A DNA stretch of 64,000 nucleotides from Cerrena zonata (lineage: Eukaryota; Basidiomycota; Agaricomycetes; Polyporales; Cerrenaceae). A program made the translations under genes and the position numbers. This document shows, piece after piece, positions 37,158-62,238 of the stretch (positions within the stretch are counted from its first letter, which is position 1; every line of letters starts with the position of its first letter). The stretch covers positions 186,001-250,000 of the forward strand of contig JASBNA010000037.1 in NCBI GenBank assembly GCA_038087015.1, given 5' to 3'. The notes under the pieces were generated by a model. The model saw nothing but the letters and a program-made list of their open reading frames with translations. It made no database searches and was not told where the DNA came from.

Positions 37158-37484
37158 AATTTGATCGAAATACCTTATATCGTCTTATATGTAGAGCTTT
37201 TAGTTAGATATGGCATATGTTATTCATATTTATATATATGGCTATCTAGCAGTAATTAGCGTTTGCTTCAGTACTTATAAATAAATAATATTACTTTGAT
37301 ACTTTATAGCTATGTATTTAATTAGATTGTGGTGTAGACGCTCGATCTCAAGCTTCATTCCGAGCCTCGATTCCAGAACAAGTCCGAGGTATACTATGAC
37401 TAGTACGCCTCACGACCCAAGTATCCACTCTTCACTGATCTGTCAGACCAATTCACGAACCTGAATTCAACACCTGAATATGAA
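37158..37484. other. AT-rich intergenic stretch
   Basis: Unusually AT-rich just after BTB-2 (37190-37320, with TATATATATG and AAATAAATAATA runs). No gene. Confidence 0.4.
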
Positions 37485-38130
37485 ATGGCCCCGAGTCTTG
37501 CACTGCCATATCACACGCGAGTCGCCCGTCAACGGGATGAAGTCTCTCTTTTAGGTGCTTTCAAATTCTATTTGCTAGAAAGTGTAGAAGTCATCTTACA
37601 GCTTAATACTCTTAGACGAAAATGAAATGCAATACTACACCTGCCTTAAACATGCATTTTCAGCATTGTTCACTGTGGTTGACTATGTCACATTTCCGCT
37701 TTCCGGTGACGATATAGCTCGCCTACCCCAAGATAGAATCGGGAGATCAGCTGACGGTACTTATGCTGCTTGTTCTGCGGTCTTCCAGGGACCTATCCTC
37801 CCCCTTCCTATCATGGGCAAAGTCAACGATTTCTGGGTATGCACTGTTTTAGGGGAGGAGGCGATCTTTTACAAAGGCCAGGAGGGCTGGATACGCTGGT
37901 CAACTTCAAATTTCTCGGATGCTGTCGTCAGAAGGGGACGCGTAGTCCGATTTTCAGCTTCAGATGCGAGTCCCTTTAGTTGGTACACAAAGGAGTCCAC
38001 CCCTGAGACACCGCTTCCGGTCAGCATTCGACTCAGGAACTTAATGATCACTAGTAAGGATTATCATTATCCCATACTGGTATATTCTACTGTATCTCAC
38101 TGGCGGATCATTGCTAAGCCCAAACCATAA
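37485..38130 (+). CDS. Small orphan protein between BTB-2 and BTB-3
   Basis: Exons 37485-37554 and 37616-38130 (194 aa). A 61-nt GT-AG intron joins an ATG-led exon in frame to a 171-codon open frame, which is better than chance but not proof. The protein is not a fragment of a BTB domain. It has alternating hydrophobic and charged stretches (NDFWVCTVLGEEAIFYKG, RGRVVRFSAS), with no signal peptide or clear transmembrane helix and no family I recognise. It sits on the same strand as its BTB neighbours, 106 bp before BTB-3. Confidence 0.45.
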
Positions 38131-38236
38131 GACAACATCCTCAATACTTGCTGGACCCATTGGTTGCAGGAACTATAGGTAGACAACTATCTTTCTCAAA
38201 CACATAACATAGATCCACTAAGCGGAACTTTCAGAT

Positions 38237-39849
38237 ATGTCCCTAACGCTTCTCCATTATATCTCTGGAACGCCCATTGAACAGGCATGCAGTGGATATA
38301 CTGTTGCAGAGCTCAAGGCTCTGTGCAAATCACCCGACAAAACTGTGTTTTCTGTGGATGATTCTCAGCTGTCAAATGAAGCCGCCGTACCTCGTCACAA
38401 CAGTCTTCCCATGATTAAGGATGACAGCAAATACTCCAGCTACTGCCCTAGCGAGTCGGCCATCGAGTCTAAACCTCCCGTAGGGGTCCGTCCATATTCG
38501 CCGCGATCACAATCTTCTAGCTCTCAAATAACAGGTTTGACACCTCCAGATTCGACGAGAAACCACGAAGAAAATAATGTATCACGTAAACGACCAAGAG
38601 ATGACAGCCGTATGCCTATTTCTGCATCACCTCACAATACTCTACATTTTGGGTCAGGTATTGGTCCCGGTACTACATCTTCGAGGCTTAGCGCAATGCG
38701 TTCCCAGTCCGCTTCGAGGCAAAATTCCGCTCCCCTTCCAATCACCGTACCTTCAAGTCCCCGGGCCCCTATGAATGTCAGCGGGGATTGCGGTACATTG
38801 GCAATGACTCACTCGACAGACCAAATACCTTCGAACCATCATACGGATAACGACTATGATACTGAACCCCAGAATAAGCGTGCGCGGATTGAGCAACAGT
38901 TCGCTCAGACCAAACCTGCGTTGGTAAGCTATACCAGTGTCGCAGTTGAGACCGAAGCAGCAAGTCCCACTCCTCCGGAGACACCTCTCTCGGATCCTGT
39001 TATCCGTGTTCAGGTCGAGAATGAAGTATTTGAACTCCAGCTATCCAATCTAGTTCATCATTCAGCATGGTTCTCGCGAAGATTTGACAACGGCGGGAAG
39101 CGAGACACTCACATCGCCTTGACAAATGTTTCAGCTCATGATTTTGGCAGATTGGTTGGAGTGTTAAATCGGACATTGTGAGTTTTCTTACATCATGGTT
39201 ATTCTTCCGATAGAGTACTGACTAGTAGCCTAGCGACTTCTTGGCATCCCCTCCTTCGCCCTCTGTCCTGTCGGCCATTCTCGGGGCATCCAAAGCGCTA
39301 GAATTCTCCACCATTAGTGACTTTCTTGTGCAATATATGAGCACTGTTTGGTCTTCCGACTGTTCCCTGATTACCGAGGGACGACTCGAGGGCGCTGTGG
39401 TCACTATCCAACTGGCACGGGAATTCCGCGTACCCCAACTGCTTCGGCGTGCTTTCTATGAAATAATACGAGATGGGACTGATGTCACTACACTGGGTCT
39501 GGCCGACAAGGACACCATGACTGCCCTCAAGATCCAAGGTTTATTTCAGAAGGAGTGGATGTTATTCGTAAAGGCTTCACCACAGACAGCCTGTGACCAA
39601 GGCCCGTCCGACTCTATGACATGTTCCTCTCGTTCCATTAGGAAGGAACAGTGGACGTTGAATGTCACTGACAGTACGATCTACGAGCTGGGCATGCAGG
39701 ATCCTCTATATGCTCTCAATCGTCTTATAGATCTGGGTTGGACCAAACAGGGATATTGTCTATCATGTGCGGGTCATTGGCGTATGGGTCTGAGAACGAA
39801 GAGGGCTGCATGGTGGGATCTTCTGGGGTCTCACGTTGGCGAGAAGTAA
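38237..39849 (+). CDS. BTB/POZ domain protein (BTB-3, tandem array)
   Basis: Exons 38237-39177 and 39234-39849 (518 aa). The N-terminal 250 residues are Ser/Pro-rich with basic stretches (RKRPRDD, NKRARIEQ). The BTB core opens with DPVIRVQVENEVFELQLS, followed by HHSAWFSRRF and, after the intron, FLASPPSPSVLSAILGASK. The C-terminal helical region ends WWDLLGSHVGEK and is very similar to that of BTB-2 (KEWMLFVK, GYCLSCAGHW). The first exon here is continuous, whereas BTB-2 and BTB-4 split the same region, so the true 5' end may differ from this model. Confidence 0.8.
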
Positions 39850-40397
39850 CTGCAATTCCCATACTGCTCAGAACATGCGCTCCGACCATACATTATAGCA
39901 CGATATAATTCATCTGTTTTGCCACGTTGAAAAGCAGGATTAACGTCACGGTTCAATGTATGCTTGACGAGCGAGTGCCTTCCCCGATTCGTTACCTGAT
40001 GATCGACCGTTCGGATGATCGATCGACCTCAGTCGGAGTCAGGCAGTCGCGCTGCGCCCAGCCTCACATTTCACTTGGGTTCAGACCGTCAACGTTTCAA
40101 CTTGAAGAGGTTGGGGCAGACAATTTGCCCGATCCCACTGGTAAGAGTCTAATCTACATACCCTCTTTGCTGCTCGATTCTCACGTTCTTGCTATGTCTA
40201 TTATACATCAAATTTATCATTGGTCCTCAAAATATTCCTATTTTGTATTAGTAAAGTTCAGTACTCAGAACTTATCTATTCGCAGCAAAAACTCCTTCCA
40301 ATAGTTCCTGGTAATCTCGAACCATAACATCTCGCTCGGATTCCTATACTAACGATGTATGTAGTATCCCTCTACCTTCTATCCCATCATTGGAATC
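39850..40397. other. Intergenic between BTB-3 and BTB-4
   Basis: 548 bp without a gene or clear repeat. Confidence 0.4.
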
Positions 40398-42070
40398 ATG
40401 AGTGTCAGGTGAGTATCTTGTTGCAGAGCAAGCTTGAATATCATTTAATAGGTTTCCAAGCTCGGATATAGAACCAATCTCGGATGCACCAGCCACTACC
40501 CGCACTTCTTCCAGCAGTGAATCAAGGTTAGACATTGCTTCTTATCCCACTTCAACCAATACGTGTTCAGTCGTGCTAACTAATTGAAGCCTCAGCATTA
40601 TACCAGACCATGACGACTCTGATTATTCATCCAGCGGATGCGACATCGTAGTGCAACGAGCCTCATCACAGCCTATCTCTCAGCGATTACGATCTGCTGG
40701 TTCAAAGGTGCTAGAGGATGAAGAAGACGAAAGTGTGACCAGCTCGAGAGAAAGTAGCGAGCCGAGGAAATCACCACGTAAACGGCTGAAAAGGGGGAGT
40801 CCAGCACCGACTCCAGTAACTCCCAGTCCTTCCCGTAAAGGACGCAGCACCGGTACCAACCCATTCACTACACCCTCAAAGCCTAACGCAACACTCCCCC
40901 AGTCCGCTTCAAAGCGACAACTTCCAATCCGAGATTTCTTCTCTCCACCGAATCCCCTTGGTAGTAACGGAAGCCCCCGAGTCGGTTCATCGCACAAGAA
41001 TACCGTCACGAGTCATGGCTCCAACCCTGAACATCAGAATAAACGACGAAGAGTTGAGCAACCGACGAGCCACGGAAGTGTCGCGCTCGAGCTGGACGCC
41101 ACAGATGTAGCTCCTTCAGAGACGCCTCTGTCTGATCCAGTCATCCGTGTTCATGTCGAGAACAAAGTATTCGAACTCCAACTGTCTAGGCTTGTTTTCC
41201 ACTCAAAGTGGTTCTCGCGACAGTTTCATCAGAAGGAGAAACATGATACGCACATTGTCCTGACGAACGTCTCAGCTTGTGATTTTGGTAATCTAGTTGA
41301 GGTGTTGGATAGGACACTGTGAGTTGAAATCATGTTTAAAGATCCCTCTGACGATTAATTGCTAATCAACTATTTATAGTCAATTCTTTCTAAACTCTCC
41401 CTCGCCCTCAGTATTTCTTTCCATCCTCCACGTAGCCGAAATACTGGAATTCGAAAGTGTCATCACTTATATCATTCAATATCTGGCTAACGTTTGGTCA
41501 TCCGACCCTTCCAAGATCTCTTCGGACCACCTCGAAGATGCCGCCGTCGTCCTCCAAATTGCACGGGAATTCAAATTACCTCAACTCCTTCAGCGCGCTT
41601 TCTATGAAGTGGTGAGAGACAAGAAGGGTATCATTGCACAGGAGCTATCGGATACGGACAACCTAATTGCCCTCAGGATACAAGCTTCTCTCCAAAGAGA
41701 GTGGGCGTTGTTCACTAAGGCCCCACCCCAAACGGCCTGTGACAAAGAGTCCAAGGAAGGACCAAATTCATGTTCGTCTCGTTCTATTAGGAGAGACCAA
41801 TGGACGACAACTATCATGGAAGGTGAAGATTCCATCTATGAGAAGGGCATGGAAGATCCATTCTGCGGGCTTGATCATCTCTCGCAATTGGTCTGGAAAG
41901 AGCAAGGGTATTGTGCGTCATGTGCGACGCTTTGGCTTGCGGTTATAAAGGAGAAGAAGACTGCGTGCTGGAACAGTGTTAGAGAAGTATGTTTATTAAG
42001 AGAGACTATACGCTCGGAGGGCCTATTTCGTGTCGCGGAGTCGTTAGTCGTTAACGCTCGATTTATCTGA
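40398..42070 (+). CDS. BTB/POZ domain protein (BTB-4, tandem array)
   Basis: Exons 40398-40408, 40452-40526, 40596-41318, 41380-42070 (499 aa; first intron only 43 nt). The first 170 residues are acidic then basic and low-complexity (PRKSPRKRLKRG, NKRRRVEQ). The BTB core DPVIRVHVENKVFELQLS is nearly identical to that of BTB-3, then FHSKWFSRQF and, after the intron, FFLNSPSPSVFLSIL. The helical region continues to GYCASCATLW. The last 25 or so residues differ from the other copies, so a short 3' intron may have been missed. Likely a recent duplicate of BTB-3. Confidence 0.82.
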
Positions 42071-42197: not shown

Positions 42198-44258
42198 TTA
42201 ATCCTGCCTCTTCCTGAACAAGACCTTTGCAGACAGGTTAGGCGCATTCGCTGAAGCGGCCCAGAATGGATCCGGAACGACGCCCTCCTTCTCGAATTTG
42301 ACATCGTAAGTCACAACGACGTGGGCTAGCATAGCTTTCAGTTCGTTCGCAGCGAAGAATCGTCCAGGGCTATTTCGGGATCGAGAATATTGAGTAAAAC
42401 ATCCATAATCGAACATTAAGAGACATACCAGGCATGTTTTCCGTGACCGAATGGAATGTATTCCGAACCGGTAGAAACCATTTGGTGTCTTAGACCCTCT
42501 CCGTCTTCATCTCGCATTTCAGAGAATCGCCAAGGGTTGAAGACTTCGCCATCGGAATAATAATCGTCGTCGTGGTGCATCGGCATTGCAACCGCGGAGA
42601 CGAAGGTGCCCTCAGGAATAAATGTTCCATCTGAAAAAGTAAAATCCTTCAACGCGAGGCGAGTCATGCTGACTGTTAATAGTTTTTTCACGTAGTAGTT
42701 AGTTGGATATTGCGGTCTATCAAGATATTAAACTTACGAGCACCAAGACCATAGTAGCGCTGGGACTCTTTCATGAAACTGTCCACCTTACGCATCTTTT
42801 GCATTGCGAGTTTGGTCCATCCATCAGCTTTTACAACACGTTCGACTTCCTCCCGCATGGGCAGTATCCACTCAGGGTTAGCAGCTAATCTGTACAACGC
42901 ATGCGTAAAGCTCTTTGTGGAGACAGCCAATCAATTTTACGAACTCGGGTTATTGTATGACGACGTACTTGTGAGGAAGTGTGAATAGCAGCAAAATTGA
43001 CTGTCAGAATGCGCAAAACCAGAGCTCTCTCCGTTTGCTCTTCGCCTTCAGCGTCATCCATCAACCAACTGAGGAAATCATTCTGTCAGCCAGTCAGCAT
43101 GATATATCACTTGATACCGAGGCACCACTTGCCGGCTTGTTATCATAGTCCTTTCCATATTCCTCCATCATCTTTCGACGATGACGAATCATTGGTCCCA
43201 AATGCTTTAAGCCACGATCAATACTGTTGGGCACATTTGTAAAGAGTCGCGCAGCAAGTCTTGTAAAAATAGACAAATATTGAGTTCATGAAATATCTGA
43301 AACGAATGATAGGCTCACGGGCGCAGGAAGGGCGGGAACATGCCGATCTTGAAGGCACCCACGACCACGTCTATGGTAAACTGAACATTAAGTTTCATCC
43401 AGTCAGGGTCGCGACCTAAAGAACGAAACCTTAATGGACAATCAATACAATTATAGACAAGGCTTACATTTCGGAAGACCAACGAAAATCCTGTTACTGG
43501 TGCGACACACGATCTTCATCATGTTATCCACAGCGGGATAGGCAACCCAATCTGTGTGTGTCAGAAGATGGTAATGTCTGTACAAGTGGCATAAGATACA
43601 TACCATTTGTAGGGGGGATGATTTCGTTGAAGGCTTCCTTGATTTCATCACGGACTTCAGGAAACAGAATCGGTAGATTTCTTGTTAAAGTAGTCCGAAC
43701 AATCGGAATGTGGTATGGGTTATAATACACATTGGAACCGAGAGTATAGTCAACTTGAAGTGTCTATAATTACGACAAGAATCAGAATCCATGACGTTGC
43801 TTCGCTGAGAGCTAGAGAAAAATTTAGCGTACTTGTCTGGTGGCATCATCGAAGCTAAGGACATCATCCGGCGCCTTGCGTATTTCTTCCACCATCTTAG
43901 GGCCGGTAACCATAACATGCCAACGAAAGATTTCTGCCACTTTGAATGCCTTTCCTTTGTACTAAAAATACCCACGTTAGTGACCGTCGATCAGACTTCT
44001 TGCGTTGACACTCACCTTCGCGTAGCCTTCCTGCATAAGTCCCTTGTTATCGACCAAGAATCTGTATGTGCCATAAAGCGACAAGATAGGTGCAGTAGGG
44101 GTCAGGGCTGGTATATGTGGTAACTGAGAGCAGTGAGCTCAACGCCGGTTAACATTGATCAGATCACTTACCGAGGACGGGGATGGTTTAAGCCATTTTA
44201 CCAGAAGGACGATCGTCGTCAGTGCTAGCAAGCCATAGGTTAATAGGTCGCCCTTCAT
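42198..44258 (-). CDS. Cytochrome P450 monooxygenase
   Basis: Eleven exons: 44258-44172, 44123-44016, 43961-43833, 43763-43604, 43551-43468, 43415-43319, 43259-43133, 43082-42969, 42912-42738, 42672-42429, 42369-42198 (498 aa). An N-terminal hydrophobic anchor (LLALTTIVLLV) points to the endoplasmic reticulum. The helix I region reads FAAIHTSS, the ExxR motif is ESQR, and the heme loop is FGHGKHACPG with ligand C442. The intron 43083-43132 starts with GCAAGT, a GC-AG intron, which is needed to keep the frame. The substrate is unknown. The two acyltransferases are 13 kb away with housekeeping genes between, so this is not an evident metabolite cluster. Confidence 0.93.
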
Positions 44259-45366
44259 TTCGAAGGGGTCAAGCTAGTGGGTCAAGAGGTAGTATAGCGG
44301 AAGAAAGGAACAAACGTCGAGTTGAAAAGGTCAGGCGGTGAACACCGTTGCCCGATTCCGGGGAAGATCAGGCCCTGAGAAGCAGAGGGAATGTAGGGTG
44401 GTGAGAACTGGCCCTAGTCCCAGCTATTTACAGAAAGCGTTCATGTGCAGGTGCTTCCCGGAGGCACTGCGATAGAATCACACACGGCTCCCAGATTGCC
44501 AAGTTTCTCGTTCAATCTCCAGTCGTGGGTGCGCATGTCATGGACTGTATGGTATGAAAACTTTCCAGACAGCTGGAATCGTGACAAATGACTACTCCCA
44601 TGATCTCTCTGGGACTCGGAGTCCGCAGTCCCGGATCCAGGATACGGAATTCTAATAGACGCCAATTGCGATGTTCAGCTCATATGACATTATAGAGGAG
44701 AATTCAAGTTACCGACAGCTGCCCATCGAGTGTGAAATCAACATGTACATCCTCTGCGTTGTGCGTGGTGAACAAGGTATGAGAGCGTATCAAGTGCCAG
44801 AAGTTCGCCACCTGGCATATCGTACGCCTTTTTAGGCAAGCAACTTGTTTGTTGTGTCGGTGTGGCTTTGCTTATGTGAGCGTTATGATCTTTCTCAGTT
44901 GATGTGAAGGCCATAACACCGCCGTGGCGGGCGACTTACTTATGCAGCGTTATAAGTTTGACCCACACGACCATGAGTGCTGGCGGAGGTGAGTATCCAT
45001 CTTCCCAAATCAACACGAAGGTTTAGAGCTGATACCCAATTTGTCATTGCGAGCATAGGTTCGTGGCAAGCTAGGTAATCGTTTCTACGGCCATCGCTGC
45101 GGAACCACCTTGTCTGTAATGCCCGTTATCGCACAGATTCCTTCTTCCATAAACTCGACATTTGATATCAATGTCAAAAGAAATCTACTGAAGGCGCCTG
45201 CTACTTAGCAATATTGGGCGTGCCAAATCCGTCACCACATCGATAAAGAGGCTCGGCCTACGTACTAAGACTTGCTGCATGTCGCTGCTTTACATAGAAC
45301 AAGACGCACGGCGAGCTAACCAACACTTGATTCGTCCCTCTCAGTTCCTCTCAGAGAGCTATCCAA
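44259..45366. other. Divergent intergenic region, P450 and gasdermin-like gene
   Basis: 1.1 kb without a supportable gene. Confidence 0.4.
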
Positions 45367-46515
45367 ATGTTCGGACTAGGAGAATCTACATACTCTTCAC
45401 GCAAATTCATTGACCTGATTTTTACCGCGTCCTCAAAGTGGGCAAACTGGGACCCACCAAAACAGATCAAGGTGCGCTGCCAGCGTACTGGATGTCTGTA
45501 CGCCGAGACTCAAGGGTATGTCTGACTTCGTATGGAACCAGGTAGGAGACTATGGCACAATACAGCGAAAGACTGGCGAGTTCGAGAAAGAAGGCAATAT
45601 CTATGAGGACGACGCGATGGCGGACATAGTCGCCGATCATCCCCCTCAGATAGCGTCAAAGGACACCGTATTTGAAATATCATCAAATAACGTCAGACGT
45701 GTCGAATTCGGATTAGAACCTACAGCGTAAGAAACACAATCTATGTCTGAGCTTGCTATTTGTAGACGTCAAGATTTCATCGTTCATAGGAGCATTCCCG
45801 GGGTTGCCGAAGCTTCTGTTAAAGGTAGCTGGCAATTTGACACCAAGCGGGGTGCTTTGTTGGTTATGCACGAACCTTGCAACACTTACATACCTCCGAA
45901 AGCCCTACTCAAGAAGTTGTTGAATGTCCCGGTCCTCAAAAATAAATACCTCGTTACTGAAATCTTCTCCTGTCCTGCATACAGTCTTTACCTCTCGAGC
46001 GGCAGTAAGTTCTCGTGGGACCTACTGAATCATCGTGATCTAATACATCCATGTTCTATCCTATCTTGAACGCAGAGGCAGAGGCAGTCAGTCTAGCACT
46101 ACTGGCTTCCGTACCGGTACCTACTGCCCTGCCGGTCAACGTAGGCGGTTCGATCAAGTCATCTTGGTTCAACCACAATACATCTGGGTTATTCAGATGT
46201 GCCTCCGACGAAGTGTACAGCTACACTCCCTTGTATGCACTCAAAAGAATAAAGAAGCCTGGTCTTTTGAGACGTGATAGTCCTCTTCCACCTGCTCAGG
46301 ACGATGATCTGTCAGTACTTTTGTCCCATGGTAACTAAAAATCGTTTACAAATCGACGTGGTGTCTTTGTTTTAATTAGCTGGGAGGATGCTACGCAGCC
46401 ATGGGACCCTTTGAACAGCGACGGAGAAGAGGAAGATTTCGAGGACGAGGTAATTTTCACTTTTTTCGCTTGATCTGTTGTTTACTCATGAGACGGATAG
46501 GTCTTCGATGACTAG
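45367..46515 (+). CDS. Gasdermin-like pore-forming protein with short acidic C-tail
   Basis: Exons 45367-45471, 45542-45726, 45766-46004, 46076-46310, 46380-46449, 46501-46515 (282 aa; one intron is only 39 nt). The order of elements recalls the gasdermin N-terminal domain. There is an amphipathic start, then VGDYGTIQRKTGEF (from residue 36) followed by EGNIY, a central beta-rich part, then a strand pair around KYLVTEIFSC and a late glycine-rich segment NVGGSIKSS before YTPLYALKRIKK (about 226-237). The last 40 residues change to PPAQDDDL and a strongly acidic tail, rich in D and E. Known fungal gasdermins are of similar size and carry only a short C-terminal inhibitory tail removed by a protease. 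The neighbouring TPR-CHAT gene converges on it, 151 bp away. Assignment rests on pattern and context, not on a search. Confidence 0.6.
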
Positions 46516-46666
46516 TACTGGCAGCTTCGCCTCAAGGTATCATAACGGTATCATGCAAACACTTAGGTGCAGATGAGTCTGTTTGCTACCCTTCTTCTAC
46601 GCAGCAATTTTCTTTCTCGATACCTTCGATATATACCAACGGTAAAACCCATACACTACGGCGACG

Positions 46667-49600
46667 TTAAGCACCTATATGCACAAAATTGACCCATCGA
46701 TCTAGAGGAACCTTTCTCCTTCTCATCTCCTTCGTTACGATATTCAAAGCTACTGCTGATTCCTTGAAAGAGACTACATTTCCATCCTCAGGGAACATAT
46801 ATCCGTAGAATGAATCAGCCACGTCTGGCCCGTCCTCGTCAACCATCGCCCACAGAGTCCCAATCACACTCTGAAAGCCACAGAATTGAAGGGCCGCAGC
46901 AAGATGTATGACTTCATCTGGGGTCCCTTGTGCGTCGACTGCTGCTGTGTGACAGGCAGAAAGGAAAGCAAGCTCAGCGTTGGGCAATCGAGCATGTATA
47001 AGTTCGATAAGCTCTAGCCTTTCGTTCCCGTATAGTTGGAACCAGGAACGAAAAGATTCCTTCTCTCGGTGGCCGTGACAAACAAAATGAACCCAATGGT
47101 GTTGGGGTAAACAAGAAAGTACGTTATCTCTATTCGCATTTTCGCCGAAAGCTATGGTCGCAGCTCCGTTGTGCTTTTGAATACGCGTGAGCTCTTCTTG
47201 TGCGCTGTGGAGCTCTGCCCCAGGCTGGCCGACATCAGTGATAACAAATAAGTCCGGTCGTGAGCGTGCAATGTCTTGTCTTTTCTGGGATCTGGCGGTA
47301 ATCAGGACTGACAGAGTCGAAGTGTACGACGAAACATAGATATCTGGAAGATTCCTCTGTTTTGGCAGATATGGACCTGCCGCATGAAGAGGGAGAGCAC
47401 ATAGATAGGACGTCGGGCACCACCAGATTCTTGACTTTGGAGTCAAGGTTAGCGTAAGATGGTCAACGATAGGCCCAACAACCATCTTCCACAGTGTTTG
47501 CAGAACCTGACGAAGCCATTTCGGGAACTCCTCATCTCTCGTCTTGGTGGGATCGGCGCAATATGATGCAAAATCAGCGAGAGTTTCGAGGTGAATATCG
47601 GAAAGCTGCACAACGTATGGATCCTGAGTGTCATGAACAATAATCGCATCACTCCGATGTTGGCTGATATTAATAACAATGACGGGACCCTCGACGGCGG
47701 CCATACGAAGGGTTTGAAACGACACCACCTTGAGAAAATCAGCGAATCCTTCTAGCTTTCTGACCCGTGTTAGTAGATCGTCCACGCGATCCGAAAGGAT
47801 GCGATGCTTTTTCTGTCTAACTTCGAGTGGTACAGGAGACTCGTTCAAAGTTGACGTTGCCTCGAAGGACGTAGCTTGATGTTCGAGCTGAGTAGTCAGC
47901 TCCCGGAGTTCATCTGCTAACGTCGGGCTGACCTCGCGGAGCTGTTCAAGCGGTGGCCTGAAATTACGCATCTCGGACCAGAGCATGCTCCTTCCCTGCT
48001 CTAGAAATTCCACAGCAGTCTCCAGCCGTCCTGCATCCACAGCGGCAGCAGCAGCATCGGAGGCTAATGTTTTAGGGATAGTGGACGTGGATTGGAGAAA
48101 TTTGTGCTGCAGTTCGACACTAGGGGTGGCGAGGAGGAAACGTGTGAGGAGAGTTAATGATATCGCATACGCAGAGATGAGGGAGCTATCTTGGTATTCT
48201 CTCGCCTTAGCGATCCATTCAAGGCAAGCGGTAAATCTGGATTTGACGCTAGCCGAAGAATGGTGTGTAGCCTTCTCGAAGAAGTCAAACGCTGTATGGA
48301 GGTGTTTGTCGTTAGATGGATCAGCTCTGTATAGCTTGAGCAGGACGGAAGCAAGGGCTAAACGAACATCTGTATGCTTCGGATTGTCAAGAGACAACTC
48401 CTCCTCGGCATTAGAAACAAGTTCAAATGCCTTGTCCAGATCATCCTTGCTACCACCGTGCTCGAAGCGTTGAACTAACGCCAACGCTACATCCTTCAGC
48501 GAGTTAGAACGTTCCGGATGACCAGGTGGCCAGAGCGTGAGTACCTCTTCGTGCAGTAAGATAGCTTTTTCTATGTCTTTCAACTGTCTGGAAAGCTGAA
48601 AACGCTTTGCCAAAGCTCCCGCATAACTATGAAGTACTGCAGCACGATAGGTATGCTCTGGTGGTAGGGCATCGAGAGTTTGCTGACCAAGGTCTACTGC
48701 CTCATCCAGAGCTTGCGTCGATGGTACCACGTCATAACGCTGAAGCACTGCGGCCGCCAGATTCATCATGCTTTCCGCGCGATACGGATGATCGTCAGGA
48801 AGGAGTGTAAGTGTTTGACGTAGTATGTCAATACCCTCATCCGAATCCTCAATCCTTCCCGCCTGTTGGAACCGGGCAAGAATGGCAGAGGCGAGATTGC
48901 TCAGACCCATTGCCCTGTCTGGGTGTCCTTCTGGAAAGAGCTCAAGTGACTCGCGGAAGAGCTGAATGCAATCCTCTAGGTCCTCCATCTTGCCAGTTTC
49001 GCCAAAGCGAAGGAGAAGAGCAACGGGGAGATTACCTAAAGTCAGAGGACGATCAGGATGTCCGGGTGGTTGCATACTGAGGGCTTGTCGGCTCAGGTCA
49101 ATACTTTCTTCTAGATCTACCATGCCTCCCATCTGAGTGAAGCGAGTGAGGAGGATACCAACCAGATTACCGATTATCATCGAACGTTCCTGGTCCTCCA
49201 AGGGACAAGCAGCGAGGGCTTCCCGGCTGAAGTCAACCGCCTTTGCCAAATCGTCCATATTTCCTGTCTCTCGGAAATGCAAGCGCATGGAATTTGCTAG
49301 ATCACTAAAGGCGCGGTGACGAGCGGGATGGCCTACTGGACGTATGCGTAAAAGGTCATGGAAGTGTTCGATGCTAGCCTCGAGATCCTCCTTCTTGCCG
49401 CCGTGCTCAAAGCGCACACCCAGGGCACTTCCAAGATTTCCCAACGACTTCGCACGTTGGTCAGAATCTGGCGACAGTGCAAGTGCCTGTTGAGCATAGT
49501 CTATAGAGTCGTTAATGTCTTTGAGTTCGCCCAGCATCTCAAATCGAACACGGGTGACGGTGGAAAGACTGTTCAAAGATATTACACGGTCTGGGTGCCT

Positions 49601-49997
49601 AGTTGGTCGAAGCTGCAGAGCTTCTTGGTGTAGAGAGATCTCTTCTTCGACATCTTCAACTTTGCCAGCTTGATCGTACCGCTTTCTGATAAGTATTGAA
49701 AGCTGGTCTAAAGATGCAGCTCGACGGTGGTGGCCATTTGGACACAGTTCAACGACCCGACGCATATGTGCGATGGCACTCTCCAGATCTTCAGCCATAT
49801 TGTCTTTGTCAAAGTTCTTCAGAGAGCTGAGGCTCATGCGAGTGGAACGGGCTCGTTGAATGTAGAAAAGTGGTCTTAACAAGAAATTCTTGAGGCGACG
49901 TAGAGGGCTCACGGAGCGAATTACTTTCGACGAGGGCATGATCTGTGATGACAAAGTAAGTCTGCATAATAAGAAAATCTTGCTGTTGACTTACCAT
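46667..49997 (-). CDS. TPR-CHAT caspase-like protease
   Basis: Exons 49997-49995 (ATG only) and 49942-46667 (1092 aa); an ATG at 49939 is an alternative start with no intron needed. About residues 50-550 form tandem tetratricopeptide-like repeats of roughly 47 residues (e.g. DLEDCIQLFRESLELFPEGH, then AMGLSNLASAILARF). A helical linker leads to a C-terminal CHAT domain: WWCPTSYLCALPLHAAG, HFVCHGH with catalytic H957, and LAFLSACHTA with catalytic C998, then FQSVIGTLWAMVDEDG. CHAT proteases are clan CD cysteine peptidases related to caspases and separase. The TPR part is expected to sense a partner. Its likely substrate is the adjacent gasdermin-like protein; this is inference from family knowledge and position. 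No signal peptide. Confidence 0.88.
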
Positions 49998-50344
49998 GTA
50001 TCTCCAAGTTGGGTGGTGTAACTCTTACCTCGTTTCAGGGGTGTGTACCATGTTGTGTTATAAAAACGTTTCCACGCGATCTTCACCGTTGACATGATGC
50101 AGGTTGAATGGACCTAATCCTAGGTTGGCGTATGACCTGAGTTGAGTGTTAGCCGAGATTATCTAATCTCTTCATGGCATAGTGTCAACTCTCAAGGTAA
50201 GTATTTGATCGTGGTAGAACAACACTCGAAATACAACAAAGAAGTAGTACGTCTCTTCCATAAATCATGGCTCATAAGTAAAACACAAAGGATACTACAT
50301 ACAAAATCCCGATAGACTTCTCACCATACTACATGATCGATCGC
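49998..50344. other. Intergenic between CHAT and BRF1
   Basis: 347 bp holding the CHAT promoter and the BRF1 3' end. Nothing else seen. Confidence 0.4.
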
Positions 50345-52924
50345 TCAAACTTCCTGTTCATACACATCCCACTCCGCATAATCCTCGCCCTTATCACTAC
50401 CCTCCGCATCTTCATCTTCCCCATCTTCTTCAATAATGTCCACACCCTTCCCTTTCGCCGCTGGTCCGGCTCCAACCCCTCCACCACCTTCCTCGACAAC
50501 CACAGCATTACCCATGCCCTCACCATCGCTCTTCTCCTCATAAAGACCTTCATCCTCGTCTTCTTCCACTTCCATCAGCATTGCGGGAGTGGAAGGACCG
50601 GGGGTAGTAGACATTTTGATCAAGCCAGGTGCGGGTGATCCAGTATCTGTAAAAAGATCCTTGAGAGCATCATAATTGATTCGTTTACTATATCGAGGGT
50701 TCTTTTTAAGAAGATTCTTGACAGATTCAGCTGCTGTTGAGCCGTGAGGTGTCGATGCGTCTCGAGGACGATTGTTATTGCTGTCTTTCGTTTTCCGTCG
50801 CTATGGGCGCCAAAATGAGAATCAACAGCCAAAAAAAGTGCAACGGGCGGGAAACGAACCTTGCGACTTTTCTTTTGCTCTCCTCCACCGGCGGCTTCCA
50901 ATTCGGCCTTAGCTAAACACCCAAACCGTTGAACCATATCAGAAACGCGCACGCATGGGATAGACACGAGTACATCAAACGATAGCGAACCTCATCGAGT
51001 AACAAAAAAAAAGAAACTGGAAGGGAAGAAATGAAGAACTCACCAGCTAGAGCTTCCAGGTAGTCTTTGTTCAACTCTACCCATACCCGTTCCTTTATCT
51101 TCACCTCGTCTTCTGTCAGGATGAATGCATCCAACTCATCTTCGTTTAGTCCTAGGAGTTCGTCGTCCCCTGTGAATTGAGATTGACGAATCGCTTCAGC
51201 ATGTTCAACGGCTTGTTGTAGAGTAGAGCCCTGTGGTGTAGCGAAAAATCCAGACACTTCATTTGCGAGAAGAGAATCAATTTCTTGATCGACTGGAGCT
51301 AGAGAAGAGAGAGGGGGAGGAGACATGGAGCTGTCGTTGAGTGGATCTTCCATGGTGGTATCGACTGGAGTAGCCTGGGTATTTAAGATTTGTGTAGGAG
51401 CATCCCCTAGCAGAGGTGAATCGAGAAGTGCGGGGTCAATGAAGGCATTGGGGTCTGCAGCAGATTCTGCATCTTCGGGATCATCGGGAAGAAAAAGTGG
51501 TGTAGCCTGAGTGCCCCTGGAAGAGCTTGCACCAGCTGTTTGGGCGTGCTGGGAATCAGCCGGTCCGCCTGCCAATGCACCCTCTAGGATACCCTGATCG
51601 AAAAGTGCAGGATCAAGCGATGGTTGAGGGATCGACGATTCTGCATCTGTGTCATGATCCTGCTCTTCGCCGTCGCTTTCGTCCCCTCGTTTCCTCTTCC
51701 GCTTCTTCCCTCTCGCTTTCGATGTTGCCTTCCCCTTCCCTTTCCCTACGTACTGCTCGCCCTCGCCCTCTTCGTCTTCTTCCTGTTCCATTTGCATCGC
51801 CCTCAGTTCCCTCTCCCTTCCCTTTGTGAAAGCAGGCGGATCCATCGTCTCCTCCAACCACACACTCCTGAAATCCGCTACGCTCAAATTCGCACTGCTC
51901 GATTTCCTGAATTCTTCGACTCGTTTCCTGAGGGTGGTATCGGCAATCTTCACCACCTGGACAATTTCTTCGACACTTCTTCGGAAGTTGTTCATACGGG
52001 CAGCGAGGAGGAGGGCAGCTCCGCAAATACCCGAGGGTCGGCGACCAAGTGCCATCCAATCTCGGTCGAAACGTTGAACGAGGCGGGTAGCGTCGAGGGC
52101 AACCTGAGAGGTCTCGTCTCCAAACTCGAGTAGAGCGGCGAAACGGGAGATATAATGTGATGGATCGACAAGTGTGAGTCGAAGACTAAGGGTTTGCATG
52201 AGTTGTAGATAAGTGTGTCCTAGTTCAAATACATTGACCTAGAAGAATATTCAGTAAATCAATGAGACGGTAACTTTGAGGGGACATACCTGGAGTAGGT
52301 CAGAAAAATCGATAAGCATTACATGTTTGTGGTCCTTCTGTCTGCAAGCAATGTACAGACAGACAGCTACCACGTTCATACTCTTACGTCCTCTCGTGAA
52401 TTTGTGTTCTACAGCTAGAGTATACAGTCGAGTAGCAGCAAGCTGAATGATATCGGAGAGTCGCATTGCGTTGGCGACTTGTTGGATTTTGCGAGTGGCT
52501 GTACAAATTATCTCGGCAAACTGATCACAGAACGCATATAGTGAGCCCAACATACCGTTTGCGATGGTCTGTTCTCTGCTCTCGGTGCTTCCCCTGTGTC
52601 CGAATGGGCCGCCCATTCGCGCATGAGCTGAACGTGGGGGACGTCTTGTTAACAAAAATATTAGCCGAGAAAAACGTGCTTGTACTCACTGGCCCCTTGT
52701 CCGACAAAACTACCTTGCACCATCGCAGCACCGTTACTTGTCTCACCGAAAGTGACTTCATTTACAATGGTATTTTCCTCCAGGACAGTACCACATTGGA
52801 CACAGAAACCATTACCAGCAGCAGCATCATATTCGATAACGGTACCGCCGCAATCTGTACACACCGTCTGTATGATCGAGGGGTGAGTTGGTCAGATATT
52901 TCAAATGTGCGAGGTGCGTACCAT
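50345..52924 (-). CDS. BRF1: Transcription factor TFIIIB subunit Brf1
   Basis: Exons 52924-52922 (ATG only), 52867-52690, 52627-52290, 52238-51044, 50912-50860, 50800-50345 (740 aa). A zinc ribbon opens the protein (C4, C7, C23, C26, with CTDCGG and FCVQCG). Two cyclin-like TFIIB repeats follow (from YAFCDQFAEII and from YISRFAALLEFG). After an acidic and basic linker, the Brf1-specific block SKRINYDALKDLF is present, then a strongly acidic C-terminus. It recruits RNA polymerase III to tRNA and 5S genes. The first exon carries only the start codon; without it no Met precedes the zinc ribbon. The 131-nt fourth intron is the longest in the gene. Confidence 0.93.
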
Positions 52925-53259
52925 CGTTCCTGCTTGTCCCCCGACGAAATAAAGAAAGATAAGTTATTAGCCGTGGATGGCTGTTGAAATGAGGTGAGTC
53001 AAGCCAGACAAGCGAGAAGGACTCAGACTGTGACAATCAAAATCGGCGTGACATCCGTTACAGTCATGTGATAAAGTGTCACGAGGATTACATCATCGGT
53101 CTGTTGAGGGATTGCGTTATTGGATTGGGCAGAGTCTAATGCAGCCTTACTCAGAGTTATCGACAGAGGATCAGCTCAGATTCGCAGGATAAATAGCCCC
53201 AAGTCCTTCGTACCAACTCTCTCATCCCTATCCTCTCACTACCACCCGCAACAGAAAAC
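52925..53259. other. Divergent promoter region, BRF1 and Mn-SOD
   Basis: 335 bp between two start codons. Nothing else seen. Confidence 0.4.
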
Positions 53260-54237
53260 ATGTCTGGCCACACTCTCCCCGACCTTCCTTACGCTTACGA
53301 TGCTCTCGAGCCATATATCTCTCGTCAAATCATGGAGCTTCACCACAAGAAGCACCATCAGACCTATGTCAACGCTTTGAACGCTGCCGAGCAGGCCTAC
53401 GCCAAGGCTAGCACCCCCAAGGAGAGGATTGCTCTCCAGAGTGCTCTCAAGTTCAACGGTGGTGGTGAGTACCCATTACCTGACTATATGCGCGACCAGA
53501 TCAAGAATCTTGTCCGTTGTTGCGCTTGAGCATGATCGGTCTTCGGCCGAGTAGAAGCAAAAGCGCTTCGTAATACAATTTCACCTCATTCTATCTTTCT
53601 TATCCTAGTCTATCGGCTGCACCGATGTCTTCGCATACATTGACAGACGTCGGCAAGAATGTGTGTAACGGTTGCTAACGTATAATCCTCCTATAGGACA
53701 CATCAACCACTCTCTCTTCTGGAAGAACCTTGCCGGTTCCAAGTCCGAGGGCAAGGGTAACGGTGGTGTCCTCCCCGAGGGTCCCCTCAAGCAAGCCATC
53801 ACTGAGGCTTTCGGCTCCCTCGACAACCTCAAGAAGGAGTTCAACACCACCACCGCTGGTATCCAAGGCTCTGGCTGGGGCTGGCTCGTACGTCATTCTT
53901 TTTATAGTGATGTCTGGAACGCGTATTGATGACTATATGCGTTCATATATAGGGTTTGAACCCTACCACCAAGCGTCTCGAGATCTCCACCACTTCTAAC
54001 CAGGACCCTCTCCTCACTCTCGTCCCCATCATCGGTGTCGATATCTGGGAGCACGCTTTCTACCTCCAATACCTCAACGTCAAGGTCGACGTACGTACTC
54101 ATTTTTGCTCTCGAAACTTGAGCTCAGTTAATTAAATACCGTCTTATCTTCAGTACCTCAACGCTATCTGGAACGTCATCAACTTCGAGGAGGCCGAGAA
54201 GCGTTTCACCGAGGCCCTTTCTGGCTCCAAGCTCTAA
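53260..54237 (+). CDS. sod2: Manganese superoxide dismutase with C-terminal SKL
   Basis: Exons 53260-53464, 53697-53887, 53953-54090, 54154-54237 (205 aa). The whole Mn/Fe-SOD fold is present: [24 protein letters not shown] with metal ligand H28, NHSLFW, the Mn-type GSGWGWL, and [11 protein letters not shown] with the last Asp and His ligands. It dismutates superoxide to oxygen and hydrogen peroxide. There is no N-terminal extension that could act as a mitochondrial presequence, and the protein ends in Ser-Lys-Leu, a canonical peroxisomal PTS1 signal. It is thus predicted to be cytosolic or, more likely, peroxisomal. The first intron (232 nt) is about four times longer than others in the window. 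Codon use is strongly biased to C-ending codons, as in highly expressed genes. Confidence 0.95.
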
Positions 54238-54786
54238 GCTGCTTCAAGTCGTTTGAGCTTTTGGGCCCTGGATTTTGGTAAAACTGGATACTCGCGTCGG
54301 AATATGCAAATCAAAGTGAAAGAAGTAAAGTGCTTGTTGTATGTGTAGTATCTAGCATCAAGTCAAGCAATTATCAAAGACTTGTACTTTACACCCTTGA
54401 CGTATGAACCTCGAGCGGCCGATAAACCTAGAACAGAGTCTCTGACCTCAAAGGTGTGAATCTTAGTGACGTATGTCATCACCAGGTCTTCATTCTCGCT
54501 TCGAGACACTTGGGCGTGTAAACGTCAACGTAAGATGAGCAACTTTCGTGAGCTTCCATGTCATACGAATCACACCGTCTCGGGTATGGTGACAGGATAT
54601 GCCACAATAAAGGTATAGTGTTCGCTTTATGCTATCAATACTAATATCCTGTTTACACGTAAAGTGACGCTCAGTAATGCTATATTCTAATCTCGCTCGA
54701 TCTATCAGGTCCATGATTCAATATGTTCAGAAACCTAAGTCAGGTTCCCTCCCGTTAGCTTACACCAAAGTCTGCCCCAAAGACAC
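54238..54786. other. Intergenic between convergent genes
   Basis: 549 bp, no supportable gene or repeat. Confidence 0.4.
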
Positions 54787-55769
54787 TTAAGCAGCAATGA
54801 AAGTAAGAACCTGATAATAAGGATGGTGAGTTTCGATATCGTTTAGATACAAATGAGAGTGTGGTGACTTACTGCTTCCTGGGTAGCACCAAAGTTGGAC
54901 TCGAATTGGGCAACGCTGCCAATGACGGTAAATGCGTTCGAGCTAGCAACAAAACGGATCGTTTGAGCAGGAACGCTTCCATCTGTGTTCACCCAGTTGG
55001 AGCTAAGCACATTTGTTGCAGTGTTGATAGACCAAATGGCAGATTCAACGTCCTCTGGGACACCAGCAGCGGCAGAGAAAGCGTTAGCCTGTCGCTGAGG
55101 AGTCGAACCAGCAGGAGCTGTGGAAACGGACGTAGTGTTATGACCAAAGATTTAATAAAAATTAGACGAAATACATACTCTGGGTGGTACCGGCGAGGTA
55201 GACGTAGTTGTAGTTGTTCGGCGACAGGTTAGAGTCGCTGTTGGCAAAGCCAGTCACCGCACCAAGGAAGGGGTAGGTGGGATTGCCTCCGTTCTGTGAA
55301 TTTGGTCAATGATCAGACACTATCCCGTTGACGAGCTCTCGAAACTTACAGTGGGCTTAATATCGAACACGGGGCCCTCGCTGAAGCAAATCGAAACTTC
55401 CAATGCCTCGTTGAGGTTCTGAGTGTACTGGAACTCTCCGAAGGCGTTGAGAGCAGACGCAAGGTATCCAGTAGATGGAGCGCCATCCAAAGCGACACCA
55501 ATGATACCAGTCAAAGGAACACAAGGAGTAGCAGACTGGCGTGCAACAAGCCTCCTGGCATGGTTGAATCTAGGTTTCTTAGGGGGCAAACCGCGAGCCA
55601 TACGCTGGGCGTTGGTCGTGAGATAAGGTTCTGGGGCAGGTGCACGCGCGGCGAGTTGAAGTGGATTGAATGGCAGGACATCTGGAACAGTTCGCGAAGG
55701 CGTGGCCACGGCGGACAACGCAGTCACAGAGAGGGCGAGGAAACGAATGAGGTTAGAGGCTGAAGGCAT
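54787..55769 (-). CDS. Secreted protein of unknown function
   Basis: Exons 55769-55350, 55293-55179, 55117-54873, 54810-54787 (267 aa; introns 56-62 nt). A classical signal peptide covers about residues 1-23 (hydrophobic LIRFLALSVTALSAVA). A Pro/Arg-rich pro-region with a possible KEX-type dibasic site (ARRLVARQ) follows. The mature part is Ser/Thr/Asn-rich with only two cysteines, in a hydrophobic-polar alternation typical of small beta-rich extracellular proteins. I do not recognise a family or catalytic motif. It is probably a cell-wall or extracellular protein. Confidence 0.75.
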
Positions 55770-55959
55770 CTTGAGGACTTCGAGTAAGTGTAGAGAAGTA
55801 GGATGTAAAGACTGTTGGTTTGTAAAGACGGTGTGGTAAGTATAGTTGGATGGGACCAAGAGGCGGGGCCTGAAGGTGAGTTGAGGGGAGTTGAGGAGGT
55901 CAACGTCTGGGACAAAAACGAACCAGATGAGGAATCCGCCACTTGTCTGAAGGGTCCAG

Positions 55960-55967
55960 TATATATA
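55960..55967 (-). promoter_or_regulatory. Candidate TATA box of the secreted protein gene
   Basis: TATATATA, palindromic, about 190 bp before the ATG at 55769 and in otherwise mixed sequence. Confidence 0.35.
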
Positions 55968-56407
55968 CCCCCGGCATATCTTAGTTCCACTTCTGTCATA
56001 ATAGAAGACTTCTCTAGGTCTCCGGGTTTCGTATATTTCGATCTCAGCTCCAGACTTTCGAGGCGGGGAGATAAAACATACCTACCCTTTTTGGTAGGTG
56101 TTCAACATTGTTCCACCGTAGTTTCACCATAGTAGGAAGGCGCCTTTCCCAATTTGGGATAGTTGTGGCGGGGCCAGGAGATTTTGACGCATGCGCGCAC
56201 GCCGGCGTTCATTTGGCGTTTCCTTATTTGTAGATTAAAAAATCTATATTCTTTCCTACATATACTCCCGATACTACCTATCAAAAGTGTTGTCAAGACT
56301 ACATATATTATATCTACATAATGTACGCTCATATCTCCAACCAAAAACATGGCGATAGATGAGGTTTGAGTCAACTTTATCTGGTAAATATTCATTGTGC
56401 GCCTAAA

Positions 56408-56535
56408 ATGGCGTTCAATCTGGCGTACAGTCGGCGTTCAGTCTGGCGCGCATTGGCGTGCAGTCGGCGTTCATTGGCGTGCACCTGGCGTTCATTGGCT
56501 CTCTGGGTGGCGCTCATTGGCGTTCGCCGGCTTTC
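56408..56535. repeat. Degenerate tandem array of a TGGCGTTCAT-like unit
   Basis: About 12 copies of a 10-12 bp unit with consensus TGGCGTKCAT lie back to back (e.g. TGGCGTACAG, TCGGCGTTCA, TGGCGTGCAC). Unit length varies, so this is not a simple microsatellite. The array makes a GC-rich island within AT-rich flanks. Confidence 0.8.
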
Positions 56536-56810
56536 ATTTTCCTTTATAAAATTTGTATTTATGGATATCTATATACATTTGAACATAGTATTCTATTTTT
56601 ATCTATCTTATTTCATGTTTTCGTAATATTTTGATACAATCATTATAGGTATCTTAAATCAAACACCACTAAGAAAAACTTACGAATGGTAAGGAAAACA
56701 AATCCCATAGTCTTGGTACCTATAAAACATATAACACAGCTGACTTGGTACCAGAAAAAAGCGGGATACAAGTGACTGGATTTATCTTGATTTTTTATGT
56801 GTTTAAGCGG

Positions 56811-56867
56811 TGGCTCGCACGCGGCGTGCAAATGGCGTGCGTTGGCGCTCACATGCGTTCAATTCTC
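56811..56867. repeat. Second cluster of the TGGCGTTCA-like unit
   Basis: About five more copies of the same unit, 280 bp beyond the main array, again in AT-rich surroundings. Confidence 0.65.
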
Positions 56868-57789
56868 CTAGCCCGTTGTGGCGTTCAGTACGTGCCTTGT
56901 TGAATTGAAGTTTTTTATTTTCCCCCGCTGTCTAAGACCCTTCTTGACAGTTCCCGCCAGTTTAGCCTTTTAGTATGCGCCTTTCGTGATTTCGTAGCAC
57001 AGTATTCGGTCCCAGATGCGAAGCATGCACATAACAGTAGAGTGGTATTTCATTGGTGGGTGTCTTGTTTCGGTGTAGAGCTGTGGGTCCAGACCCTGCT
57101 AAAAGCTGCCCCTGGGCCTTAGGCTCTATCCCTCCCGGTATTTACGAAAGAAAGCGGCGGCCACGGACATCTATAATGAATTAGACATAGCTTTATATCA
57201 GTTGAGTATGAGTTATCGTAGGTCGGTGCCTCGATTATCGGTACCTTGCCCAGTTACTAGCCAAGGTTTGTTCCGCTGAACCGTTTCGCGTATATGCCAC
57301 CACCGAGACACAGTAAACTTTGTCAGTACTTTGCCTAGGTTACTACTCAAGCTAGAGAGGTGCTTACTCGACGATTGCCTCCGTGGTTCCCAGTATTCTA
57401 TGACCGCGATACCGATCAGTATATTCAGCTTCAATCGTCAAATCTACGCATCAAACTCTACTTTGCTTGATCTTATACTGATACTCAGCCAAACAAATGT
57501 TGGGTTTATGATACACGAGTATTTACAGTGTTATCAGGATAGGATCTCTGCGTATTGCACGGTATTACATCTTGTAACGACGGCAATCGTCGACGACCGG
57601 GTTCGCACAAATCTGAGTAGTTTACAGGTTCAATACCGTCAAGTTAGTCTGCTATCAATGAACTTCCTATAGTGTGGGAGGTTCAGCTATGTCAACGAAA
57701 TCTTTGAAAAGATAATTAAAACCTACTTAATCTCTATCTATGAATATCAGACACCAGCTGGAGGCCAGCAATCCTCTTGATGATGTTCT

Positions 57790-59335
57790 TCACTTCCTTT
57801 TCGAATGTAGACAGGTGTCCATTATGCGATTTATACTATTGACGAGGGCCAACATCTCCCCATGAAAGATGTCAGGAACGATCTTTTGTGTGTAGTCACC
57901 GTGCTCAATAGTCTTCTGTAAAAAAATATAACATTCGTCAATATCAGCCAATGTCTCCGAAAATGGGAAGGGGCACACTATCGCGATGGCAATTGTTCGC
58001 ACTTGTGAAGCAAGCTAATTTATGCATTAGTGATGAATACAACTTGAACTCTACACATGTGAAGATCTTAACGTACATTAGCAGTCATGTTATTAACATC
58101 ATGAACAAGATTCTTCGTAACATCATTAGCATTATACGAAATGGCATGTACAAGAGCACATTACCTTCCAGGCGCCCTCGAGATCAAGGTGATCGAGTTG
58201 TACACGCTGACCAAGTTTACCATCAGTACCAACTTCGTGGGTTACTCTTGCGATTTCGTAAGCCACTGCAGAGATAGTTTGCAATATATCGTGGATTATC
58301 TCCTTCACTTCTGACATCTCTCCGTATGCACTGGACCCAATTCGCCAAGTGAGATCACCATGGGCTACTACCCTATACACTGAAGCATTCCAGCGTACAT
58401 GCATGGTAACGCGATCTGCCATCACATTCAAGTTGTCGGTAAGTGCCTAGTTGAGTTCATAACCTGCAGAACAATACTGAGGATGACGTAAAAGCTCACC
58501 TTCCAAGAACCTTGCACGTCAGGAAGAAAGATTTGCGAGCCCATCACACCCTGCTGAATGTCCAGCGCAACTCTCGAGACTTCTTCAATAACAGCCCGTA
58601 AGCTTGAAATCATATGGTTGACCGTTGCTTTCAGTTCTAACATTTCGCCACGAGCCTCGACATCGACCTGCTTAGACAGATCGCCTAAAGTGACGGCCTT
58701 GGTAACTTCTGTAATAGCTCGGATCTGGTTCGTTTGATTGGAAACGAGGTCGCATATGGAAGATGTAAGATCGAACCAAGTTCCCTCAATATCAGGGGCC
58801 TCCGACTGACCACTCGGAGTACTTTAACGCGATGCTGGTCAAAACCAAATTCGCGATTGATTAAGAACTAACCTTCTAATATCGGGATCCTGCAAGACGC
58901 GAGTCATCCCCTGAGCGAATTGACCCAATTTGTCAACCTAAAGCAAATATTTATTATAGGTGTAAAATTGCATCGTATCGAGTGATAGCTCACCATCTCG
59001 TTGACGACATCCTTGAGTTGAACCATGACCGCACCTTGAACTGGAACCGTGATTCTTCGAGAGAGGTCTCCGCGAGAAACAGCATTACAAACACGAGCGA
59101 TGTCTGAGACTTGTTGCTTCAAGAGCTTGAGCTCCTCAGCAGCATTCATACCAGATTCGTGTGCAAGATTTGTGAGAGGGCCGGGAGGAATGATTAGCGG
59201 CAAGGGTGGAGACTCAACGGTAGTGGTTTCCGTGATGGTAGATGTAGACGAGTCGAAGGTGAGACCGTGACCGCAATGAGGACATGTATGGAGGTATGTA
59301 GCTTCGAGTTCCAGAGGTGTTGTTGTCGCCGACAT
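57790..59335 (-). CDS. HAMP-repeat protein, truncated relative of group III hybrid histidine kinases
   Basis: Exons 59335-58994, 58937-58873, 58821-58500, 58446-58165, 58112-58077, 58014-57979, 57915-57790 (402 aa; introns 51-63 nt). A CPHC pair stands near the N-terminus, then successive HAMP modules like those of Nik1/Os-1 kinases: VSRGDLSRRITV, then VTLGDLSKQVDVEARGEM, then VAHGDLTWRI, then IEHGDYTQKI, each linked by LDLEGAWK-like segments. The family normally continues with more HAMP modules, a HisKA-ATPase core and a receiver domain. None follows here. Just before the stop, the expected continuation is found in another frame (next finding). The protein could still act as a sensor-only or dominant form, but decay of a kinase gene is likelier. 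Confidence 0.75.
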
Positions 59336-60189
59336 GATCAAGATCCGAGTCGTTGAGATCGTCGTAAAGTGACAATGTGAGTACTTAGAAACCTGTATAA
59401 GTATATGATTCCCCAGAAGGTTCACATACACGAGGCATCCGTGCGGTCCAACCAGAGGGTAGCGTCAATCGGCATGCTTCTGGTTCTTCCAATCCTTACT
59501 GGTATATCTAATAGATCCCACGAAGATGTCATGCTCGAATTGAGTGGCGTAGCTTTATATGGGTTAGATCTTTCACAAGTACACAGATCAGCTACCCATC
59601 CCCCGAGAGTAGATCCTGTCAGAGTCTCACCGTCGTTCAAGTCGCTAGAACACTTTGGAGTAGCCTTCAATTATTATAGTCAACAACAGAGATCAGGATG
59701 TTCTGAGAAAAATGAAAGATGTTAGCTATACATGGATTTCTTGTCAGTGATTAGCTTTGGTTAGATAGTCCATGTCATAGTCTCCAGGACTACTATCATA
59801 ATAGTACACAGATGGCCGCGCTGTCAGTCGTGTCACAGATGGTACCCGTGAGGTACCAAGTATGTTCATGGCACTACATGAGTTTACATTCAGACTATCG
59901 ATGATATCTTCAAGTTGTATGGCCGGCGAAAGGTCACTGGTAGTCAAACAGTGAGTTTTGGCACTTACCTTCTCAGCCTGAGGTCGTTAATGATGACGCA
60001 AGTTCAAGCGCCAAGTTGAAAGCCACATCTTCCAAAAGCGGAAATGAACTCCGAACCACACATCGCCGTCATTGCCACTTCGAGTCCATACGGTGTCGCT
60101 TGCTAGTAACCACTTTGTACACCACCTAAAGGTACTTATGCAGCCAGATCCCACATTAGCTTCTTTATCACTACTCGAAAAGGTATTTT
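59336..60189. other. Divergent intergenic region
   Basis: 854 bp between the HAMP gene and the F-box gene. No supportable gene. Confidence 0.4.
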
Positions 60190-61956: not shown

Positions 61957-62238
61957 AAACTTGATGAAGATTTGATACACGATTCGTTCTGTATCAAGGA
62001 TCCTGTCGGAGAGGCATGACGAAGCGTATCTCATACTATGATTGAGAGTCTGCGTACATATGTGACGGTTTGTGGCACCTTGAGTTTTGTAACGTTTCTT
62101 CGTCTCACTTGAAAACGCGCTTATGCTTCAATCCAACGCTTTATGTAATTTCATATCCATCTGGGAACGGGGTCGTGGGACTCAGTTCTAAACCTTCCTA
62201 TGTAACTCTCACAAGGCTTCAGAGCTACCGCCATTATC
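61957..62238. other. Intergenic; nothing seen
   Basis: 282 bp without a feature. Confidence 0.35.

Follow-up and report, generated by a model that had tools for sequence, protein, structure and literature searches.

Here, we describe a pair of adjacent genes from the white-rot basidiomycete Cerrena zonata, located in a 64,000-nucleotide window (positions 186001-250000) of contig JASBNA010000037.1, hereafter C37, in an assembly of 55.5 Mb and 171 contigs; unless prefixed with a contig, coordinates are those of the window. A gasdermin-like gene and a gene for a protease in which tetratricopeptide repeats (TPR) are joined to a CHAT domain converge on each other, and we consider it probable that they constitute a proteolytically activated gasdermin module, of the kind in which fungal gasdermins and proteases bring about regulated cell death. 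The fungal gasdermin-CHAT module is already in print as a type, so that the Cerrena pair is a basidiomycete example of a module known from ascomycetes.

The gasdermin-like gene occupies 45367-46515 on the forward strand and consists of six exons (45367-45471, 45542-45726, 45790-46004, 46076-46310, 46380-46449 and 46501-46515, stop codon included). Its spliced product of 274 amino acids is identical, letter for letter, to the public Cerrena zonata protein QCA50_014746 (P0001). A preliminary description of this DNA had instead given a protein of 282 amino acids, with an intron 2 acceptor at 45765; intron 2 ends at 45789, and the gasdermin is therefore 274 residues long. The 8 residues added by the longer model (RQDFIVHR) are absent from all 24 rows viewed of an alignment of 48 family members. 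Searches of Pfam, PADLOC and the PDB with the protein sequence returned no gasdermin match, and its identity was settled by the fold search alone. When the AlphaFold model (pLDDT 87, pTM 0.85) was compared with the PDB using Foldseek, rows 1-17 were all gasdermins, headed by RCD-1 of Neurospora crassa (8jyz_B, E 3.7e-5). Thus, the gasdermin-like character originally proposed from the sequence withstood structure prediction, and, by its predicted pore-forming fold, the 274-residue protein is a gasdermin.

A protein search with this gasdermin yielded 199 relatives with an E-value no higher than 0.01, the best 120 of which were listed. The named relatives among the matches listed belong to fungi that we take to be Agaricomycetes, and all are entitled 'hypothetical' or 'uncharacterized' protein. 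Among the nearest of them is a protein from Lentinula guzmanii, which shares 75% identity with the Cerrena protein, and past a few further close matches (P0003 and P0004) identity drops to about 54% or less in the 120 best of the 199 matches. No relative of the gasdermin turned up in a single scan of viral contigs or in another of prokaryote genome contigs. The 48 aligned sequences were hand-picked from the 120 for spread, and none of them matches a Pfam gasdermin; this Agaricomycete family is unrecognised by Pfam, and the alignment provides a profile for finding further members.

Within the 48 sequences, the best conserved parts are an N-terminal segment (residues 8-36, mean conservation 0.71) and a tail segment (residues 243-263, mean 0.67). 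The linker at codons 228-242 (46252-46296, forward strand) is the least conserved block (mean 0.45), yet Arg234 is kept in 81% and Arg235 in 85% of the sequences. The C-terminal segment that follows, codons 243-274 (46297-46512, forward strand), spans the end of exon 4 together with exons 5 and 6; exon 4 ends within codon 247, and everything from W248 onward is encoded by the last two exons. Five residues of the tail, W248, P254, W255, L258 and G262, are kept in 98-100% of the sequences. The protein carries a charge of -16 over residues 237-274, and the same over 243-274, against +4 over residues 1-236, and the model has a pLDDT of 91 at residues 241-250 and 84 at residues 251-260. Given its conservation and charge, we regard this acidic segment of ~38 residues as a putative inhibitory tail, and the linker as the proposed protease site. 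The fungal gasdermin HET-Q1, which at 278 residues is close in length to the Cerrena protein, loses 40 C-terminal residues on cleavage at F238, near the position of the Cerrena linker (PMC10989679), and a cut after Arg235 or Asp236 in the Cerrena gasdermin would remove ~38 residues. It is because size and place match the HET-Q1 cleavage that we propose a site near Arg234-Arg235; which residue exactly would be cut is a guess. The CHAT protease Csx29 cleaves Csx30 around M427, with loop size outweighing most single residues (PMC10028731), so that a cut by the Cerrena CHAT domain need not follow an arginine.

The protease gene lies on the reverse strand at 46667-49997 and encodes 1092 amino acids. 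Relative to the earlier gene model, a first exon of one codon (49995-49997, the ATG) and an intron (49943-49994) were added ahead of exon 2 (46667-49942), and the product agrees in length and start with a public protein of Cerrena zonata, QCA50_017911 (P0121), which is assigned to a contig equal in size to contig C64 and differs from the window protein at 15 residues. An array of about eleven 45-residue TPR units covers residues 52-546 (48308-49792, reverse strand), as judged from the 45-residue periodicity, the units themselves and the helix pairs of the model. The CHAT domain (46673-47509, reverse strand; PF12770, E 6.5e-29, and a fold match) contains the catalytic His957 (codon 47075-47077, reverse strand) and Cys998 (codon 46952-46954, reverse strand), which align with H585 and C627 of Craspase, respectively, and are each kept in 119 of the 120 listed homologues. 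The intact His957/Cys998 dyad reported in the preliminary description was accordingly borne out, with the numbering right for the 1092-residue protein. The fold matches separase and the TPR-CHAT protein Csx29/Craspase, the latter over residues 329-1089, and has an N-terminal TPR array and the CHAT domain in one chain, as in solved TPR-CHAT proteins. Fold and alignment support the view that the neighbour of the gasdermin is a separase-like TPR-CHAT protease with an intact dyad. Csx29/Craspase has this architecture and dyad in common with the Cerrena protein; it differs in being bacterial, RNA-guided through Cas7-11, and directed at the substrate Csx30 (PMC10028731). Of 7991 candidates scored in the CHAT search, 3550 matched with an E-value of at most 1e-10, and a further CHAT search, with a Galerina protein, gave 2353; the best 120 of each were listed, and 40 of 120 listed CHAT proteins were hand-picked for spread and aligned. 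Among the matches listed, a protein from Lentinula boryana, at 69% identity, is one of the nearest named relatives of the protease, and past the further close matches (P0122, P0123, P0125 and one from Marasmius) identity drops to about 45% or less within the best 120 of 3550.

The two genes are convergent and separated by 151 bp (46516-46666), just as had been described. A CHAT gene at this distance places the pair among the fungal gasdermin (fGSDM)-protease clusters, which are recognised by an S8 or CHAT gene within 10 kb. A search of the genome gave 4 CHAT matches, distributed over 3 contigs: one on contig C7, the window gene on C37, its copy on contig C64, and another at C64:117161; within about 4 kb on each side of the C7 and C64:117161 genes there was no gasdermin match. 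With 3 CHAT loci, a count that is a lower bound, a random site would fall within 10 kb of one with a probability of about 0.1%. The adjacency of the gasdermin and the CHAT gene is not a matter of chance.

Linkage in other species was approached indirectly. Using contigs of equal size as a stand-in for shared contigs, we compared 14 species in which both proteins were named, Cerrena included; rows were copied by hand, and those without an NCBI name or contig size, as well as one bacterial row, were excluded. Among the 13 other species, the gasdermin and a CHAT protein lie on contigs of equal size in 4 (Galerina, Jaapia, Heterobasidion and Phellopilus) and not in the remaining 9, compared with 0.6 expected for an assumed 45-Mb genome (P about 0.0015). 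The signal is one of linkage on contigs of 0.6-2.3 Mb, adjacency itself not being seen. The comparison is biased in that one CHAT search started from the Galerina protein, for which a shared contig was already evident, and no other search gave the Jaapia match; without Galerina, 3 of 12 species have both proteins on contigs of equal size, against about 0.50 expected. For Cerrena, the gasdermin row was on C37 and the CHAT row on C64; linkage was nonetheless seen directly in the window.

The two genes could still be neighbours only, with the protease acting on another substrate and the gasdermin activated otherwise, for example, by a variant partner, as in the case of RCD-1. The CHAT family is large, as the 3550 matches attest, and cell death through RCD-1 is described as requiring two allelic variants and no protease (PMC12881547). 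Furthermore, contig C4 carries a second gasdermin-like gene (about 2139193-2140145, reverse strand), recognised by colinear exon matches, that has neither a CHAT nor an S8 match nearby: C4 gave no CHAT match in the genome search, and its S8 matches are 1.4 Mb away. This gene is decayed: its first conserved block is interrupted by an in-frame stop, and the profile search did not detect the tail. Set against these points are the small number of CHAT loci found in the genome, of which only the one in the window adjoins a gasdermin, the sharing of contigs in 4 of 13 species, and the conserved gasdermin tail, which matches the size of the segment lost by HET-Q1 on cleavage (PMC10989679). We therefore judge mere neighbourhood very unlikely.

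Under the preferred reading, that of a proteolytically activated gasdermin, we infer the following chain of events by analogy. The TPR array would keep the protease inactive until a trigger is met, whereupon the active CHAT domain would cut the gasdermin linker, most likely beside Arg234-Arg235, removing the acidic tail of about 38 residues (~4.4 kDa). The freed 26-kDa, slightly basic body would then oligomerise in the plasma membrane, and the resulting pore would kill the hyphal compartment, limiting a virus, a parasite or some other intruder. A pore that serves secretion or development at sub-lethal levels, instead of killing, appears extremely improbable: secretion has been named as a role worth exploring for such clusters, while the tested fungal relatives, RCD-1 and HET-Q1, kill cells (PMC12881547), and no sequence evidence in support of a sub-lethal pore was found here.

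The assembly contains a second copy of the region (window 43855-63379 versus C64:1-18822). C64 begins inside the part of C37 described here, and the two contigs can be aligned, in two pieces, along about 19 kb at 97-98% identity; C64 represents either the other nucleus of a dikaryon or a duplication. The first 4.6 kb of C64, including the gasdermin gene and the CHAT domain, are identical to C37, and differences start at window position 48488. The identical stretch may be a contig-end overlap, which leaves it uncertain what gasdermin the second copy has. C64:22000-26000 has no other match in the assembly; past the point where the two contigs diverge, C37:262000-266000 is a repeated element with 52 assembly matches, itself included, at 65-100% identity.

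The two copies bear on another reading of the pair, mentioned in the preliminary description, as a somatic-incompatibility (allorecognition) determinant, in which differing alleles that meet after hyphal fusion would trigger killing, as with het-Q1/het-Q2 and rcd-1. Two ascomycete gasdermin systems are described as acting in this way (PMC12881547), and a CHAT protease gene is involved in heterokaryon incompatibility of Aspergillus fumigatus (PMC11138114). All 15 residue differences between the protease copies fall within residues 1-490, either inside the TPR array or N-terminal to it. However, the 49 nucleotide and 15 residue differences in codons 1-490 correspond to a dN of 0.014 and a dS of 0.101 (dN/dS about 0.14), which points to purifying selection, and the flank at 50605-52355 differs between the copies about as much as this half of the protease gene. 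Moreover, the gasdermin is identical in the two copies, although the possible contig-end overlap weakens this comparison, which in any case involves n=2. Given the identical gasdermin and the low dN/dS of the TPR half, we rejected the allele comparison as proof of allorecognition; the claim is unsupported by the two assembled copies, and we consider this reading quite unlikely.

Among known systems, the closest precedent is the two-gene cluster of P. anserina, in which a gasdermin gene is paired with one for a CHAT protease that bears TPR repeats (Clave et al. 2022, cited in PMC12881547). The likeness lies in the adjacent genes and in a protease that serves as sensor and activator, a role that in Cerrena is putative; it is drawn from the published description, the ascomycete cluster having been tested for function and the Cerrena pair being known from sequence and models. 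The HET-Q1/HET-Q2 system of P. anserina, cited in the preliminary description, is less close: the protease HET-Q2 belongs to the S8 serine type, and het-Q1 and het-Q2 are idiomorphs at one locus (PMC12881547), whereas the Cerrena protease is of the CHAT type and the genes stand side by side. RCD-1, the closest structural match, differs in being activated through the pairing of two allelic variants (PMC12881547). More broadly, ~1900 gasdermins have been reported from 400 fungal genomes, more commonly in Ascomycota, with ~80% of them clustered with protease genes (~63% with S8 and ~19% with CHAT within 10 kb; PMC10197012). In the open-licence PMC titles and passages surveyed, no basidiomycete gasdermin/CHAT pair was described; the survey of Clave et al. 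may well include such pairs.

The distribution of the two genes among mushrooms raises the question of their joint inheritance. For both Cerrena genes, Lentinula is among the closest named relatives in the matches listed. A midpoint-rooted tree of 114 of the 120 listed gasdermins (those of 230-320 residues; 6 were dropped on length) places Cerrena next to Lentinula (0.745) and P0003 (0.996), and Jaapia, Heterobasidion and Galerina fall within the 45-leaf clade that includes Cerrena (0.905), Phellopilus being outside. Clustering has been suggested to favour both vertical and horizontal inheritance of the whole pathway (PMC9815663), and the common nearest relatives of the Cerrena genes would fit inheritance as a unit. 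Horizontal transfer of the pair is only a possibility. The fuller proposal, that an Agaricomycete gasdermin shut by an acidic W-PW-L-G tail is opened by a TPR-CHAT protease at Arg-Arg and that the two genes move as a unit between distant mushrooms, is speculative and, taken as a whole, unlikely.

Other genes in the window are of various kinds. A BRF1/TFIIB-type transcription factor gene (50913-52199, reverse strand) adjoins the 5' end of the protease gene. Repeated genes at 36558-41322 (forward strand), alike in their open frames, are perhaps of the BTB type; a single Pfam BTB match is weak (E 0.0021) and lies below the curated cut-off. In a gene at 7017-8642 (reverse strand), a matrixin-type metalloprotease is fused to an H-type lectin domain; another gene, at 10496-12177 (forward strand), resembles this one by eye, the domain scan having covered the former only. 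An ordinary wood-decay cellulase gene, encoding glycosyl hydrolase family 7 with CBM1, is located at 12565-13437 (reverse strand).

How somatic incompatibility works in basidiomycetes is reported to be poorly understood, and the models now in use come from ascomycetes (PMC8229728). The Cerrena pair offers a compact, testable white-rot module that comprises one predicted executioner, one predicted sensor-protease and one predicted cut site. If the reading of a tail-shut gasdermin and its protease moving as a two-gene unit were true, the pair would be a ready candidate for the effector still missing from accounts of cell death in mushrooms, be it directed at non-self or at viruses.
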